NCBI RefSeq assembly: GCF_946463545.1
Contig: NZ_OX296583.1
Coordinates: 781,035 to 845,034 of the forward strand
Origin: Methanothermococcus thermolithotrophicus DSM 2095
GTDB lineage: Archaea; AGJL01; Methanococci; Methanococcales; Methanococcaceae
DNA length: 64,000 bases
Direction of reading: 5' to 3'
A program made the position numbers and the translations under genes. Of this stretch, positions 1-62,690 are shown one piece after another. The notes under the pieces were generated by a model. The model saw nothing but the letters and a program-made list of their open reading frames with translations, made no database searches and was not told the DNA's origin. Numbering within the stretch: the first letter of the stretch is position 1; each line of letters starts with the position of its first letter.

Positions 1-75
1 TACAAATCCGAAGGATTTGTTCAATTTCCTTGAAATTTGCTTCGACAGCGAATCATTCTGATTCGCTTCGATATT
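1..75. repeat. modular hairpin array (window edge)
   Basis: Chain of short hairpins: CAAATCC-GAA-GGATTTG (3-19), AATTTC-CTT-GAAATT (about 24-38) and GCGAATCA-TTC-TGATTCGC (48-66), joined by a TTCGACAGC linker. The same module style recurs at 15.2, 17.7, 24.7, 47.6, 50.1 and 60.8 kb. The array may begin before the window. The rest of the sequence up to the first gene (76-236) is AT-rich, with a weak module remnant near 165-187 and a TATA-like stretch near 190. Confidence 0.75.
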
Positions 76-4673: not shown

Positions 4674-7628
4674 TTATTCTAAAATACTCTTTAACATGGC
4701 TTCCGGATTTTCTTGATATTTCTTAATTATTTCCCCTACTTTTGTGATTCCATTTATATTGTTGTTTATCATATACTTTAGAACTTTTTTCCTACTTATT
4801 CTATCGTCCATGAGTTCATCCCTTGTTATACCTGCAATATCACAAACTTCCTCTTCCCACATGCAAATTCCTGTTTTAACGATAGAATCGGTTACACCAT
4901 CGTATTTAAAATGTTCTGTTTTACTTATGTCTTCACCACTACCGCTAATTTCAACTACACCCAAAATTCTTCTTAGGGTTTTTTTATTTCTTTTAATTCT
5001 TTGCTGATTTATAATAAAATCCAATGAAGAAATCATGACCTTTGGAACATTCATCGGTGGGTTTATCAATCTCACAATGGCTTCATCAGCACTGTTTGCG
5101 TGAAGCGTTCCTGAGCAGTTTGAAACGATAAATCCACCATACTTACCTGCAATGTATGTGTGGTTGTCGTCAACTGTTAAATCATAAATATATCCTTTGT
5201 ATTCAATTTCTTCAACACTTACAACTTTATCCCAATATATGTCTGAATTCGCCAATATTTTTAAGTTTTCAGCATTTAATATTCCTGCTATTTCATTTAG
5301 CTTCGTTTTAGAAGGGTTTCTTACACCTGTTTCATAAGCTCGGATTAAACTTCTGGTTTTTAATCCGAGCTCCTCAGCTAATTCTTGCTGTGTTAGTTTA
5401 TTGTTTAATCGATAATATTTTATCAATTTTCCGATATTTGGTATAACATCTATGGAATTTTTGGATTTAAGCAATATGTTATTTAACTTTTCACGTTTTA
5501 CATGGTGTGTGAAACCAATATGTTTCCAGTATTTCCATATATTATCATGTCCACTAATAGTTATTTTATAGTATGGGCCGATATTTCCTTTTCCATCTAT
5601 TTTTTGTTCTGATTTATGAGATATAATCCCAAATCTTAGCAGTAAATATGGAAGAGTAATTGCAAGATTTTTGTTCGATGTTGCAAATTCAATACATCTT
5701 GTAGTTTCATTTACATGGCCATCAGAATCAAATAATCCTTGTATAAATTCTGATAAATAATCATCGTCTGATAGTAATACATCTCTTGGGATACTGAATG
5801 ATTTTGTTTTATTTCCAATTGGGATATATTTTGAAAGTTTACTGGCTGACTCTACTCCATACACTTTGGCTCTTGTGTAGTTGTTATATTTTAAACAAAC
5901 AACATTTCCATAATTACTCAGTTCACTTGAAACTTTTTCAATTACGTCGCTATCTTGATTTACAAAGTCAATGCAATATTTGCTTAAATGACCATCTCCT
6001 AATAAAGCACCAATTAAATATGGATTTTCAACATTTTTTCTTTCAACCGGGTGAAGCGTAGAGCTACAAAATCCATAAGAATTTTGTTCAACTTTTAGTT
6101 CTCTTGGGAGTGCAATATAATCGTTAATTTTAACCATTTCCGCATTTATCTCAAATATTTTATTATTTAGAGTATATATTGGATGGTCATGAGTAAGGAT
6201 TATTTCTTTACCACTTTTTGTTTTTATTTTCATCATCTTTCCAGAGTATTTTTTTCTCCAAACTCTTGATATTAATTTATCCTCAATTTTTAAAGTGGTT
6301 TTATTGAAACTTTTAATAAATGTGTTTTCATTAGATATGTCAATCCATTCGAATCCATTACTTTCTTTTACTTTCATTGAATTATACTTTTTAAAAAATT
6401 TATCAACAAATTCTCCGATACTAACAATATTTCCATTAGATAGATAAATAGGCTCATCTTCTGCTAATGCACCATCATGCCCCGTATTCATAGCAACTAA
6501 GAGAGATTGAGCTTCTGAACCTCTGACCTCTCCTACAAAGATCCTATCTGGCCTCATCCTCAAGGCGTTCTTAATTAAATCTTCCATAGTGATCTCATAT
6601 TCTGGAATTCCAGGTCTTGGTGGTCTTGTTATCATTTTGATAACATGCGTAAGTGGAATTTGCAACTCTGGAGTATCTTCAATAGTTATAATCCTGTCGG
6701 TGTACATTGAAAACATTGAAACTATGTTAAGTGTTGTTGTCTTACCTGAACCAGTACCACCTACAATCAGGGTGTTCGCAGGCTTTGCTCCAAAATAGCC
6801 TTCAATAGCCTGCCATAAAAAAGCAGCAAGTTCTAGGTCAAAAGTACCAAACTTTATTAAATCAACAATAGTTAGTGGTTCTGCCGAGAACTTACGGATT
6901 GTTAGGGTACTTCCATTTAATGTTACATCGGATGTTGTTGCGTTAACCCTACTACCATCTGGTAAAAAAGCATCTAACATTGGACTTCTGGAATCTATAG
7001 ATCTACCTGCTAGATAAGCTATACTTTCAATTATTCTAGTCAATTCACTTTTATCTAGTAATATGTTTGTTTCACACATTTGAAATTTTCTATGGAATAC
7101 AAATGTGGGATTATTTAATCCATTCACCATAACTTCTTCAAGGTTTTTATCTTTTAAGGGTATTTCTAAAAGCCCTAACTTTCCAATTGTAAGATAGAAG
7201 TATTTTGACAAATGAAGAATATCTATATCCCTAAGGCCCAAATTATTTTTTTCTGAATAGTTTTTTAAGTACCCTTGAATTTGGCCTAGTCTTTCAAATA
7301 AACCTTCTGAAAGATCTGATTTTATAGCTGCCAACTGATCTTCTGAAAGCTTGGCCAACGCTGAGTTTATCAACATGATTTCAGGTATTTTATAATAGGT
7401 TATCCCTTCTTTTTTTTCGATAATAACGTCAAACTCAACATCATCAACTTTTAAAAAATATTTATCCAATAAATTCGAACCTATGGATTCACTTATTTGT
7501 GATATATCGCTGATTAATGGGCCAGTAGTTTTTTTAATTTCAGGACTGGGTTTTTCTTCTTCTTTTTTTTCTTCTTTTTTAACGGGCTTTACTACTTCTT
7601 TTTTATGAATTCTATCAAAAAGACCCAT
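4674..7628 (-). CDS. epdL: KlbA/EpdL-type secretion ATPase, interrupted by an intein
   Basis: 984 aa precursor; removing residues 387-837 (intein) leaves 533 aa, normal for the family. A charged Lys/Glu-rich N-terminus precedes the T2SE/PilT-type hexameric ATPase domain, with Walker A GGTGSGKT at 290-297 and a Walker B/Arg-finger region DRIFVGEVRG at 361-370. The intein sits after MNTGHDG, just before CSGTLHANS, the His-box region. This is the same site as the KlbA intein of M. jannaschii. The protein should energise type IV-like pilus assembly with the two membrane proteins downstream. The ATG is preceded by GGTGGGGATCTT. Confidence 0.9.
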   Translation of the reverse strand: MGLFDRIHKKEVVKPVKKEEKKEEEKPSPEIKKTTGPLISDISQISESIGSNLLDKYFLKVDDVEFDVIIEKKEGITYYKIPEIMLINSALAKLSEDQLAAIKSDLSEGLFERLGQIQGYLKNYSEKNNLGLRDIDILHLSKYFYLTIGKLGLLEIPLKDKNLEEVMVNGLNNPTFVFHRKFQMCETNILLDKSELTRIIESIAYLAGRSIDSRSPMLDAFLPDGSRVNATTSDVTLNGSTLTIRKFSAEPLTIVDLIKFGTFDLELAAFLWQAIEGYFGAKPANTLIVGGTGSGKTTTLNIVSMFSMYTDRIITIEDTPELQIPLTHVIKMITRPPRPGIPEYEITMEDLIKNALRMRPDRIFVGEVRGSEAQSLLVAMNTGHDGALAEDEPIYLSNGNIVSIGEFVDKFFKKYNSMKVKESNGFEWIDISNENTFIKSFNKTTLKIEDKLISRVWRKKYSGKMMKIKTKSGKEIILTHDHPIYTLNNKIFEINAEMVKINDYIALPRELKVEQNSYGFCSSTLHPVERKNVENPYLIGALLGDGHLSKYCIDFVNQDSDVIEKVSSELSNYGNVVCLKYNNYTRAKVYGVESASKLSKYIPIGNKTKSFSIPRDVLLSDDDYLSEFIQGLFDSDGHVNETTRCIEFATSNKNLAITLPYLLLRFGIISHKSEQKIDGKGNIGPYYKITISGHDNIWKYWKHIGFTHHVKREKLNNILLKSKNSIDVIPNIGKLIKYYRLNNKLTQQELAEELGLKTRSLIRAYETGVRNPSKTKLNEIAGILNAENLKILANSDIYWDKVVSVEEIEYKGYIYDLTVDDNHTYIAGKYGGFIVSNCSGTLHANSADEAIVRLINPPMNVPKVMISSLDFIINQQRIKRNKKTLRRILGVVEISGSGEDISKTEHFKYDGVTDSIVKTGICMWEEEVCDIAGITRDELMDDRISRKKVLKYMINNNINGITKVGEIIKKYQENPEAMLKSILE
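5118..6470 (-). mobile_element. KlbA intein with LAGLIDADG endonuclease and HTH domain
   Basis: 451 codons, precursor residues 387-837. The first residue is Ala (ALAEDEPIYL), not Cys or Ser. Known KlbA inteins share this and splice by direct attack of the downstream Cys on the N-terminal junction. Block B is ILTHDHPIY (intein 91-99). Two dodecapeptide motifs follow: LIGALLGDGH (152-161) and FIQGLFDSDGH (242-252), each with its acidic residue. A Cro/C1-type helix-turn-helix with TQQELAEELGL lies at about 345-398. The C-terminal blocks are DLTVDDNHTYIAG and FIVSN, followed by extein Cys838. The penultimate intein residue is Ser, not the usual His. All key elements look intact, so it is probably active in splicing and possibly homing. 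Confidence 0.93.
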
Positions 7629-15231: not shown

Positions 15232-15357
15232 GAATCGAGACAAGTCTTTTTGTTTCTAAAAAGATTTGCTGACTTACGATCCACCGCAACATAGTTGCGG
15301 GGAAGTTGAATAATCTACGATTATTCAACTAAACCTGAAAGGTTTTCGTCGAGTTTG
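15232..15357. repeat. modular hairpin array next to radical SAM gene stop
   Basis: Hairpins CCGCAAC-ATA-GTTGCGG (about 15284-15300), TGAATAATC-TAC-GATTATTCA (about 15307-15327) and AAACCT-GAA-AGGTTT. The stretch 15268-15349 is an inverted copy, with one mismatch in 82 bases, of 50368-50449. The array ends directly at the stop codon of the minus-strand gene. Confidence 0.85.
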
Positions 15358-16486: not shown

Positions 16487-16806
16487 AAGTTTAAATAATA
16501 ATTCTGTAGTATATAAAATTGTGGTGATTAATATAGTCGTTTTTGTTATAAGTCGCCATGCTTTATTTAAAAATGTCATGTTGAGTAATCGGTATATAAT
16601 GTGTGCAATTTTAGTTAAAACATACCATATTTAAAGTTAAAAAACCAATTAATACTGTTTAATTTACCTAATTAAAAGCAATTGAGGGCAATTTATTTAT
16701 CTCTGTGATGTAATGCACACCAACTATAAATTCGAAAACAACTATAATTTATATCATAATGAATATATGATGATCATATGAATAGATAAATACAGGGGTG
16801 TTGTAT
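16487..16806. other. 320-bp divergent intergenic region
   Basis: Contains the TATA-like box of the radical SAM gene (about 16508-16517, minus strand), GTGTGCAA (16601-16608) and its inverted partner GTAATGCACACC (16711-16722), and a TATA-like AACTATAATTTATATC near 16740-16756 that could serve the small plus-strand gene. The inverted pair matches the ends of the segment at 7689-7828 in opposite orientation. No gene is seen. Confidence 0.4.
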
Positions 16807-17134: not shown

Positions 17135-17656
17135 ATGAAAAACGAGCAAAAACTGAACAAAAACAAAAAAGCGATTTTTATAGCTCACAGTGAGATTCGC
17201 TCACTACGAATAGCAAAAAATGCGGTTATTGTTGGGGATGTTGAATTGGGTGAAGATGTAAGTGTATGGTATGGGGCAGTTTTAAGGGGCGACGTTAGTA
17301 AAATAACGATAAAAAAAGGTTCAAACATCCAAGACAACTGTGTGATACATGGCTCAAAAGATTGTCCAACGATAATCGGAGAGTATGTGTCTATAGGCCA
17401 TGGTGCAGTTGTTCATGGCTGTAAGATGGGAGATAATGTTTTAGTTGGGATGAATGCCACTATTCTAAACGGTGCAAAAATTGGAAACAACTGCATCATC
17501 GGAGCAAATGCTTTGGTTACTCAAAATAAAGAAATACCACCTAATAGCTTAGTTTTAGGAGTTCCAGGAAAGGTTGTTAGGGAGCTCACAGAAGAAGAAA
17601 TAAAATCTATAAGAGAAAATGCAGTAAACTATATAAAATTATCAAAAGATTTATAA
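17135..17656 (+). CDS. gamma-carbonic anhydrase-like hexapeptide protein
   Basis: 173 aa left-handed beta-helix of hexapeptide repeats from about residue 28 (AVIVGDVELGEDVSVW). Candidate zinc histidines are in VIHG and SIGHGAVVHGC, as in Cam/CamH-type proteins; the Cam proton-shuttle acidic loop is absent, so this is the shorter CamH/YrdA-like type. Possible roles are CO2/bicarbonate interconversion or an unassigned transferase-like function. The first ~27 residues are Lys/Asn-rich and include a perfect AGTGAG...CTCACT inverted repeat in the DNA, suggesting a grafted N-terminus. RibH follows, as in M. jannaschii. Its last 26 bp are duplicated at 18090-18115. Confidence 0.82.
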   Translation: MKNEQKLNKNKKAIFIAHSEIRSLRIAKNAVIVGDVELGEDVSVWYGAVLRGDVSKITIKKGSNIQDNCVIHGSKDCPTIIGEYVSIGHGAVVHGCKMGDNVLVGMNATILNGAKIGNNCIIGANALVTQNKEIPPNSLVLGVPGKVVRELTEEEIKSIRENAVNYIKLSKDL

Positions 17657-18089
17657 CCGACCCTTTTAAAAAAAGTGTTGAATTAAATGAAAACCTAACG
17701 GTTTTCATAGCTCACCAACTTCGTTGGTGATTCCAAAATCCGATACCCCTTCACGAAGTGAAGGGGTATATTTGGAAACAACCTTTTAAAAAAAGTTGGA
17801 TCGAAATGATAAATACCTTTGGAATCCAAGCCTTCTCGACGAAACCTTTGGTTTCGTGAGTCCCAGCCGAGACCATAGGTCTCGTTGGACCCAGCAATTT
17901 TTAATTTGTTTGGGCAGCAAATCCGAAGGATTTGCTTCGACGACAAATCAACGATTTGTCTCGATTTTCTAAAAGGTTTGGCTTTTAATATTTACCAATT
18001 TATGGTTGGTGGGAAGTAATATATACTCACTCAACTTCGTTGGGTGGGTATCCGGTTTTGGAATCCAAACCTTTTTCTAAAAGGTTTGG
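17657..18089. repeat. large modular hairpin array flanked by 26-bp direct repeat
   Basis: At least nine distinct hairpins: 17687-17708, 17713-17729 (CACCAAC-TTC-GTTGGTG), 17743-17769 (12-bp stem, GAA loop), 17839-17857 (ACGAAACC-TTT-GGTTTCGT), 17868-17884 (CGAGACC-ATA-GGTCTCG), 17916-17936 (AGCAAATCC-GAA-GGATTTGCT), 17942-17960, about 18024-18050 and 18065-18089 (11-bp stem, TCT loop). Linkers TTCGAC and GTGAGTCC recur. A perfect 26-bp direct repeat brackets the block (17631-17656 and 18090-18115). It fills the 503-bp gap between the carbonic anhydrase-like gene and ribH; the ribH promoter follows the second repeat. Confidence 0.9.
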
Positions 18090-18159
18090 ATATAAAATTA
18101 TCAAAAGATTTATAATTTATAATACATATAATAAGGTAAAACCTAACGAGGATGAAAAA

Positions 18160-24655: not shown

Positions 24656-24721
24656 AGTTATTCCGTTTTATTTTTTTTATTACCATTTATAGTGCTCGAC
24701 ATAACAAACTTAAATATATCC

Positions 24722-24796
24722 TTCAAAATATACCTACTCAACTTCGTTGAGTAGGTATCGGATTTTGGAATCAAAACCTTTTTTTAAAAGGTTTTG
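24722..24796. repeat. two-hairpin modular element
   Basis: A perfect hairpin around TTC (ATACCTACTCAAC / GTTGAGTAGGTAT) at about 24729-24757, linker CGGATTTTGGAATC, then CAAAACCTTTT-TTT-AAAAGGTTTTG at about 24772-24796. The same linker occurs at 18050-18065 (GGTATCCGGTTTTGGAATCC) and, inverted, at 17729-17747. It lies between the PUA gene stop and the methyltransferase start. Confidence 0.85.
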
Positions 24797-24810
24797 TCTT
24801 TGACTATAAT

Positions 24811-46563: not shown

Positions 46564-47649
46564 ATGTGCGGAATTATCGGTTTTATGAGTAGGACAAAGA
46601 GAATGATAAGTGGAGAGAAAATAGCCATAGCTCTAGATAGTTTAAAAGAAAGGGGCAACGGGCAAGGTTCTGGATATGTAGGATATGGTATTTACCCAAA
46701 ATATGCTGATAAGTATGCCATACATGTTTTCTTGGATAATACAAGAGATTATGATAAAATAAGAGAAAAAGTTCAGGATACACTTCAGTTATATGGTTAT
46801 GTACTTAAGGATGAAGAGATCCCTACAGAAGAGGGGATTATAAATAAAGATTACATCTCCTGGAGATTCTTCTATGAATTTGATGAAAAATACAGAAACT
46901 CCGAAGAAGACAAGATGGTAGACATAGTAATGGATATCAACGATAAAATCGACGGAGCATTTGTATTTTCAAGTGGTAAAAACTTAGGTGTATTTAAAGC
47001 TGCAGCATGGCCTAATGAAGTTGCAGAGTACTTTAAAATTGATAAATATAAAGGATACATGTGGTTATCCCATGCAAGATACCCAACAAATACCAGAGGA
47101 TGGTGGGGAGGAGCTCACCCATTCAACTTACTCAACTGGTCGGTTGTTCATAACGGAGAAATCACAAGCTACGGAACAAATAAAAGATATGTTGAAAGTT
47201 TTGGCTACAAGTGTAAGTTGTTAACAGATACTGAGGTTGTAGCTTATCTCTTTGACTTGTTGGTAAGAAAACATAAAGTTCCAGTTGAATATGCTGTAAG
47301 TGCACTTGCTCCTAGATTCTGGGATGAAATAGACAACCTGCCTGAAGAAGAAAGAAAAATCCATGAAGCAATCAGAATGACCTACGGAAGCGCAATGATG
47401 AACGGTCCATTTGGAATTATAGTGGGAACCCATGAAGGAATGGTTTTCATGAATGGAGATGTTGAACAAGGTAATGCAATGCTTGGTTTAACAGATAGAA
47501 TAAAACTTAGACCACTTATAGCAGCTGAAAAGGATGATTTAGTATTTGTTTCAAGTGAAGAAGCTGCCATAAGAAAGATATGCCCTGAATTGGATAGGGT
47601 ATGGATGCCTGATGCAGGAAGAATGGTTATTGCGAGAATAGAAAAATAA
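46564..47649 (+). CDS. gltA: glutamate synthase, glutamine amidotransferase subunit
   Basis: 361 aa class II (Ntn) amidotransferase. Cys2 follows Met (MCGIIGFM) as the processed nucleophile. [32 protein letters not shown] is the glutamine-binding region. It releases ammonia from glutamine for the FMN subunit downstream. In archaea the glutamate synthase large chain is split into separate proteins, as here. CAGGAGGATTATC precedes the ATG. A 136-bp gap holding two hairpin modules separates it from the FMN subunit. Confidence 0.9.
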
Positions 47650-47653
47650 TAGA

Positions 47654-47694
47654 CGAAAACTGAAGTTTTCGTTGCTCGCTTACTTCGTAAGCGA
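47654..47694. repeat. two hairpin modules inside the glutamate synthase cluster
   Basis: CGAAAACT-GAA-GTTTTCG (about 47653-47671; the AGTTTTCG stem base pairs with CGAAAACT) and TCGCTTAC-TTC-GTAAGCGA (about 47675-47693). They start within five bases of the gltA stop codon. They match the module style of the arrays at 17.7 and 50.1 kb. Confidence 0.8.
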
Positions 47695-50117: not shown

Positions 50118-50129
50118 ATAAGGTAAGTA

Positions 50130-50510
50130 AGTATGCCTTTGGATCCAACCCAAGCCTTTTTAAAAGGCTGGATGCCAAATATATCTCTTCATGAAGTTAA
50201 GAAGTATTCTATTGGGGATCATTGAGCGAAGCGAGATGAGCTCTATGAAAACCACTGGGTTTTCATTTAATCCAACACCTCTCGACGAAACCAAAGGTTT
50301 TCGTGAGTCTCTACAAAAATTCGAAGAATTTTTGTGAGTCAGCAAATCTTCGATTTGCTTCGACTTAACGAAAACCTTTCAGGTTTAGTTGAATAATCGT
50401 AGATTATTCAATTTCCCCGCAACTATGTTGCGGTGGATCGTAAGTCAGCGAATCCTTTGGATTCGCTTCGACGATAAATTGAAGATTTGTCTCGATTTTT
50501 AAAGGGGTTG
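50130..50510. repeat. large modular hairpin array within the glutamate synthase cluster
   Basis: Hairpins in order: ATGAAAACC-ACTG-GGTTTTCAT (50245-50266), CGAAACC-AAA-GGTTTTCG (about 50285-50303), CAAAAATTC-GAA-GAATTTTTG (about 50313-50333), AGCAAATC-TTC-GATTTGCT (50341-50359), TGAATAATC-GTA-GATTATTCA (50390-50410), CCGCAAC-TAT-GTTGCGG (50417-50433), CGAATCC-TTT-GGATTCG (about 50449-50465). Linkers GTGAGTC and TTCGAC recur. 50368-50449 is repeated inverted at 15268-15349 with one mismatch. The array fills the gap between the GXGXG subunit and its FrhB-like partner. Confidence 0.92.
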
Positions 50511-50564
50511 GAAATAAAGGTGCTGGATTTAATTATCTTTTTTAAATGAATAGAAGGTGGAATT

Positions 50565-60790: not shown

Positions 60791-60808
60791 TGTATCACCG
60801 AATGAAAT

Positions 60809-60898
60809 GAGGTGAGCTACAAAATCCCGGTAGGGATTTTGTTCAATCACCGAGTGTAACGAGGTGAGCTATGAAAATCATGAAGTGATTTTCATCCA
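60809..60898. repeat. hairpin modules in the glycosyltransferase leader
   Basis: CAAAATCCC-GGTA-GGGATTTTG (about 60821-60842), an imperfect CACCGAGTGTAACGAGGTG stem, and ATGAAAATCA/TGATTTTCAT around TGAAG (about 60870-60894). Linker GAGGTGAGCTA occurs twice. The array sits 20 bases upstream of the GTG start on the minus strand, in the leader of the mRNA. Confidence 0.8.
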
Positions 60899-60953
60899 AT
60901 CACAGGAAATAAAAAAATTAATGTAAAGTGTTTCGCTATAATTAATATATGAA

Positions 60954-62554: not shown

Positions 62555-62690
62555 ATAGGGTGAAACCTGTAAAGGTTTCCATACTCACCTTAGCTTATGC
62601 TTAGGTGTTAATACTAATTTCTATATTTTTGCAGTAAAAACCTTGGTTTAGATGAGTATTCAAAAACCTTCGGTTCTCGACATATTTTCT
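62555..62690. repeat. hairpin modules in the L21e leader region
   Basis: GAAACC-TGTAAA-GGTTTC (about 62562-62579), an imperfect CACCTTAGC/GCTTAGGTG stem (about 62586-62607), and AAAACC-TTC-GGTT followed by CTCGAC (about 62670-62684). They lie between L21e and Pus10. They look like decayed copies of the module family. Confidence 0.55.

Follow-up and report, generated by a model that had tools for sequence, protein, structure and literature searches.

What fills the intergenic gap at 17.7 kb in a 64-kb stretch of Methanothermococcus thermolithotrophicus DSM 2095 DNA (hereafter the window, meaning the whole stretch analysed), and how do structures of this kind arise and persist? The initial annotation, made by eye from the letters of the window, had described this gap and several others as chains of differing short hairpins with perfectly paired stems and recurring linkers. 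The results showed that such chains occur far above chance: GC-containing hairpins (stem ≥8, loop 3-5) numbered 20 in the window against 0-3 in five first-order Markov shuffles, and hairpins with a stem of ≥10 numbered 7 against 0-1 in five shuffles of the same type. Hairpins with a loop of 3-4 were concentrated in the non-coding 13% of the window (18/20), and folding of positions 17657-18089 against 100 dinucleotide shuffles gave z values of -11.4 with DNA and -12.0 with RNA parameters. When sequences were selected by their linkers only (CTCG...GAGT and GAGTC...TCGA), they were mostly perfect hairpins whose stems differed from each other, while shuffles yielded about 41 linker pairs per replicate with none paired; what lay between the selected linkers was either unpaired or a near-perfect hairpin, with little intermediate. 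The gaps at 1-71 and at 15.2, 17.7, 24.7, 47.6, 50.1 and 60.8 kb are genuine members of this group. Among the weaker copies proposed earlier, the one at 62.6 kb could be recognised by eye as a decayed unit, while those at 12.0 and 30.8 kb each amount to one weak hairpin; a further copy inside coding sequence (6035-6094) had been overlooked. A search of the window against Rfam at the gathering score returned two tRNAs only, with no family match to any array, and the plasmid and phage collections gave no DNA match to the arrays.

The order of units was read from all retrieved copies after turning them to one orientation. Two double-hairpin units recur. The canonical AB unit is 57 bp long and has the form CTTG-hairpin-AAGTC-hairpin-TCGA, with linker variants that can be written as CTCG or CTTG - A - GAGTC or AAGTC - B - TCGA. 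The XY unit is about 45-58 bp long and reads AATC-X-GAGCT-Y-TTCAAT. Both are borne by a host element, bounded by TATAGT ends, whose two hairpins (HP1 and HP2) come in the order TATAGTnnnnGACATAACAAACTTAA... HP1[CCTACTCAAC nnn GTTGAGTAGG] TATCGGATTTTGGAATC HP2[AAAACCT^TTTTCTAAAAGGTTTT] ...ACTATA, and the minimal copy of the element (at L149) is 72 bp long and contains HP2 only; the terminal TATA could be either the element end or a target duplication. XY lies between HP1 and HP2 or stands alone, often in tandem, and AB is cleanly inserted in the HP2 loop at the position marked ^, HP2 being found both simple and loaded with AB. AB also occurs within the central linker of another AB (GAGT^C or AAGT^C, at L118, L133 and L206), so that chains of the form A-A-B-B result. 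In addition, an extra two-hairpin module (AGTTGAATAATC / CCGCAAC) is inserted in A hairpins at 15.2 kb, at 50.4 kb (within the second AB of the 50-kb array, 50364-50471), and at L143 and L144. The locus at 17.7 kb is a composite in which two host-element halves in opposite orientations flank an array-loaded HP2. It had first been taken to extend to 18115, but since that stretch closes with an exact 26-bp repeat of 17631-17656, the insert is 17657-18089. The hairpin chains are stacks of a few mobile units, not free mosaics; their stems do differ between modules, as had been noted, and fall into a few classes instead of being unrelated. The features of the window are listed in Table 1.

Table 1. 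Hairpin units, arrays and flanking repeats in the window (positions counted from its first nucleotide).
Feature	Position	Strand	Details
Tail of array starting left of window	1..71	+	XY remnant, B hairpins
XY unit in intein of type II/IV secretion ATPase gene (4674-7628, minus)	6035..6094	+	open frame VEQNSYGFCSSTLHPVERK
Reversed AB-type array	15235..15353	-	same inserted module as 50-kb array (CCGCAAC / AGTTGAATAATC)
Exact 26-bp direct repeat, left copy	17631..17656	+	last 26 bases of upstream gene, including stop codon
Reversed host-element half	17657..17776	-	degenerate HP2, Y 17687-17708, X/D 17712-17730, HP1 17743-17769
HP2 arms with A/B-type array in loop	17827..17983	+	A 17839-17857, extra hairpin 17868-17884, B 17916-17936, B 17942-17960, end TCGATTTTCTAAAAGG
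Second host-element half	18026..18091	+	degenerate HP1, linker GGTTTTGGAATC, HP2 18063-18091
Exact 26-bp direct repeat, right copy	18090..18115	+	
Two-hairpin host element	24688..24808	+	TATAGT end, HP1 24730-24758, HP2 24772-24796, ACTATA end
Two-hairpin remnant	47653..47694	+	starts 3 bases past stop codon of upstream gene (46564-47649)
Large nested array	50118..50520	+	XY 50215-50273, AB 50309-50363, second AB 50364-50471, HP2 remainder
Two tandem XY units	60791..60902	+	at ribosome-binding site of minus-strand glycosyltransferase gene
Decayed XY unit	62562..62605	-	by eye; no match to model R1

The units are not confined to the window. In the genome of the strain (1.71 Mb, single contig, with the window at 781035-845034), a model of XY (R1) matched 95 places and a model of AB (R2) matched 88, the most copies among the genomes compared. 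R1 also matched 29-31 places in two relatives and 2-15 in thirteen others, and gave 0 matches in seven genomes of genus g3 and in five outgroups, so XY is patchily distributed across Methanococcales. R2 matched 27 places in G004, 10 in G009 and 1-3 in several others. We take G004 to be M. aeolicus, G009 M. okinawensis and G028 M. jannaschii. Seven of the AB copies in G009 had equal scores, and the one retrieved lies inside a repeated ORF; identical copies in one repeated gene family may reflect hitchhiking rather than movement of their own. In that gene family (L243 1210-1785 and others), which had no hit in Pfam and might belong to an insertion sequence, every copy seems to hold one and the same in-frame AB.

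The evidence for movement comes from filled and empty sites. The leucyl-tRNA synthetase of G015 is longer by 19 residues (LDKNSSSFCKSANSKNSLR), the product of an AB of 57 bp that keeps the reading frame (19 codons); the site is empty in 12 relatives, one of them 91% identical. The junction reads ATGAAA|CTTG...TTCGA|AAT when filled and ATGAAA|AAT when empty, with no target duplication in this one AB case. Likewise, an XY of 45 bp lies in frame in an intein of G028, with ATTG on both sides as a 4-base repeat, and the G004 intein has none. In the strain itself an XY lies in frame in the intein region of the secretion ATPase gene, an intein that has LAGLIDADG and HTH domains (window 4674-7628). 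The in-frame copies encode a recurring peptide, LDENSSSFRKSANPSDSLR, together with three variants. Hairpin modules also interrupt a CRISPR repeat at L140, and copies of a second MITE family harbour arrays at L138, L147 and L148. The interrupted repeat is the last of a CRISPR array at L140 1520-2400; the second MITE-like family is about 130-150 bp long with TATAGTGGTGTGCA ends, occurs at window 16595-16728 and in at least 16 places in this genome, and no autonomous copy of it was recognised. The initial annotation had proposed a comparison of orthologous intergenic regions, and this bears the mobility out: in three relatives (L009, L011 and L012), the two genes on either side of the 17.7-kb array are joined by a short gap without hairpins. 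Filled and empty sites, nesting and patchy distribution all support the idea of mobile elements.

Flanking direct repeats were compared over all clusters. Long ones are few (26 bp at 17.7 kb and 16 bp at L126), the remainder being accounted for by internal repeats or by a tRNA end, and a common target duplication for the clusters was ruled out on this ground. The two exceptions are composites that start exactly past a stop codon and are flanked by exact repeats of the gene end; these 26-bp and 16-bp repeats do not fit clean insertion. At L126 (2037-2052 and its repeats) an 84-bp unit is then repeated three times in tandem, and at L128 an array lies beside a tRNA gene with 15 bp of the tRNA 3′ end repeated on its far side (2080-2094 and 2322-2336).

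XY units sit after AAT(C), Shine-Dalgarno sequences included. Context counts, taken in this genome from the window and the stretches around matches, showed that the ATCACC end of 10/57 XY units lies at the start of an opposite-strand gene, against 1/57 on the other side, and in these units that end reads as the Shine-Dalgarno sequence of the opposite-strand gene. Judged from the sequence, an X hairpin in such a place would hide the ribosome-binding site and might thereby affect translation.

The claim that folding is kept while sequence varies was upheld by the linker-only selection described above, by the alignments and by counts of near-perfect hairpins. In the A/B alignment 92.9% of cells were paired, and 40 cells were changed on both sides against 15.5 in shuffles. 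In the Y stems double changes were present and one-sided changes were none, although the rows of this alignment (A1) were picked for perfect Y stems and its pairing percentage is accordingly biased; selections by linkers only are free of that bias, and among near-perfect hairpins chosen in that way 90/111 were perfect. The mismatches in near-perfect hairpins (n=22) comprised 12 G.T, 5 A.C and 5 others. Since a perfect hairpin reads alike on both strands except in its loop, loop orientation was counted with the linkers, and with orientation fixed in this manner a given stem is seen with GAA in some copies and TTC in others, or likewise with AAA and TTT; both senses occur. The clearest case is an AB at the same site in L226 and L228, where 51/57 positions are identical and the six differences are the inversion of both loops (TTC to GAA); between the two, 12% of host-gene positions differ, while stems and linkers of the AB are identical at all 51. 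This points to flipping at the DNA level, or to independent arrival of flipped copies.

Taken together, we consider it probable that the arrays consist of stacked palindromic DNA that is mobile but non-autonomous, with AB and XY double hairpins as core units and with pairing maintained from arm to arm. AB and XY (~45-60 bp) insert at sites that are empty in relatives, and AB inserts into HP2 loops and into the central linkers of other AB units, by which the arrays are built. The moving form may be a single DNA strand that forms hairpins, and such a strand could be captured at breaks or replication forks and above all at other hairpins. The arms would stay complementary by template copying from one arm to the other (quasipalindrome correction), and the loops would flip through recombination or copying between arms. 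No mobilising protein was identified, and the enzyme, if any, would be supplied by the host or another element. More tentatively, and with less than an even chance of being right, the arrays might represent a class of mobile DNA in archaea whose hairpin pairs transpose as folded single-stranded DNA into other hairpins, with arm-to-arm copying, loop flips in place, self-nesting arrays, protein inserts of 15-19 residues and no dedicated enzyme.

These observations have to be weighed against other readings. If the hairpins were functional RNA structures under selection for processing, stability, termination or translation control, the arrays being regulatory, then the covariation of stems would be explained, as would the position of XY at opposite-strand gene starts with its potentially buried Shine-Dalgarno sequence and the excess of G.T over A.C mismatches, a lean that RNA-level selection would also produce. 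However, upkeep of the DNA itself can also hold palindromes perfect, so that covariation alone is no proof of an RNA function in this case, and selection of this type is hard to reconcile with patchy presence, the lack of a common gene context, an orthologous gene pair without the array, and insertions in coding sequence, a CRISPR repeat, MITEs and one another; we hold it to be unlikely. For the termination or protein-binding role raised in the initial annotation, which may still apply, no support was found. An RNA intermediate, in which structured transcripts are copied back and then inserted, has been suggested for the double-hairpin elements of Allomyces mitochondria (PMC2800124), and it would agree with AB insertion without target duplication and with the strong RNA fold of 17657-18089. 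We rate it as rather unlikely, given that DNA offers an easier route to exact loop inversion and that a reverse transcriptase domain was found in this genome only, among 35 Methanococcales genomes, so that the other element-bearing genomes lack one at the sensitivity of the search. The sole gene was rejected as the mobiliser, being restricted to this genome and of the UG5-nitrilase defence type; its product, of 1110 residues, matches the DRT defence family of UG5-nitrilase reverse transcriptases, and it lies at L264 2155-5487 (25654-28986 in this genome).

That a DDE transposase moves the TATAGT-ended host element as an ordinary MITE, with the hairpins as mere filling, is suggested by the TATAGT...ACTATA ends, the minimal copy at L149 and the existence of the TATAGTGGTGTGCA-ended MITE family. 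Yet isolated AB and XY units, also within coding sequence, lack TATAGT/ACTATA ends, and these insertions show the reading to be incomplete, while it could still fit the outer shell; as a full account we regard it as quite improbable. Least credible, with a very small chance of being right, is mobilisation of REP/BIME-like elements by a TnpA-REP (Y1) transposase: palindromes that are extragenic, come in pairs and bear recurring tags recall such elements, but the stems are not conserved, the genome richest in copies lacks a Y1 transposase, and only 5/35 relatives have one. This transposase was rejected as the mobiliser, being absent from this genome and sparse in the relatives.

The preferred reading, movement as palindromic DNA, bears on how very small gene-less hairpin elements spread, an old question in mitochondria and Rickettsia. 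Here a tiny two-hairpin jumping DNA lands between genes, inside proteins and inside its own kind, and its exact ends, filled and empty sites, nesting order and loop-inversion signature make the mechanism testable in an order with culturable, genetically tractable methanogens among its members. The in-frame insert in an essential synthetase also shows that protein change by tiny mobile DNA can be tolerated in archaea.

The initial annotation had recognised no described family, a judgement that holds only in part. The 2005 study of M. jannaschii by Suyama reportedly counted about 141 elements in three groups, a few of them in genes. It is cited in PMC2229807 as a paper on palindromic repetitive elements with coding potential, and these resemble the present ones as repetitive, short palindromes of the same size order that are intergenic, with some copies in genes and the frame unbroken. 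Both R1 and R2 match G028, in-frame copies included. The M. jannaschii repeats very probably belong to the same class in a wide sense, likened by description and not by sequence groups. In contrast, the AB/XY double-hairpin grammar, self-nesting, loop inversion and order-wide distribution were not met in the accessible literature, where we found no description of arrays in other Methanococcales and no worked-out account of the modular two-hairpin build with self-nesting; we take the nesting, the canonical units, the inversion of loops and the targeting of Shine-Dalgarno sequences to be apparently new. Prokaryotic MITEs share with the outer host element the terminal inverted repeats and the lack of coding capacity, whereas AB, which in its one compared case left no target duplication, lacks MITE-type terminal repeats. 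REP/BIME elements are alike in being extragenic paired palindromes and differ in that here there is no Y1 transposase and the stems vary rather than being conserved. Rickettsia palindromic elements also insert in frame in genes and give a recurring peptide; compared by size and build, they are ~150 bp long (PMC10969869) versus 45-57 bp here, where the unit has two hairpins and a different peptide. Similar in build are the double-hairpin elements of Allomyces mitochondria and the repetitive hairpin elements of sponge mitochondria (PMC2800124), likened by structure and not by sequence, which share two short hairpins, a short linker and scattered presence; ours reside in an archaeal chromosome, enter coding sequence in frame and nest in themselves very regularly. 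These mitochondrial elements also lack flanking duplication, as does the AB in leucyl-tRNA synthetase (one case), while XY has a 4-base repeat, and the Allomyces insertion unit of two hairpins plus a short linker is the one seen in that synthetase.
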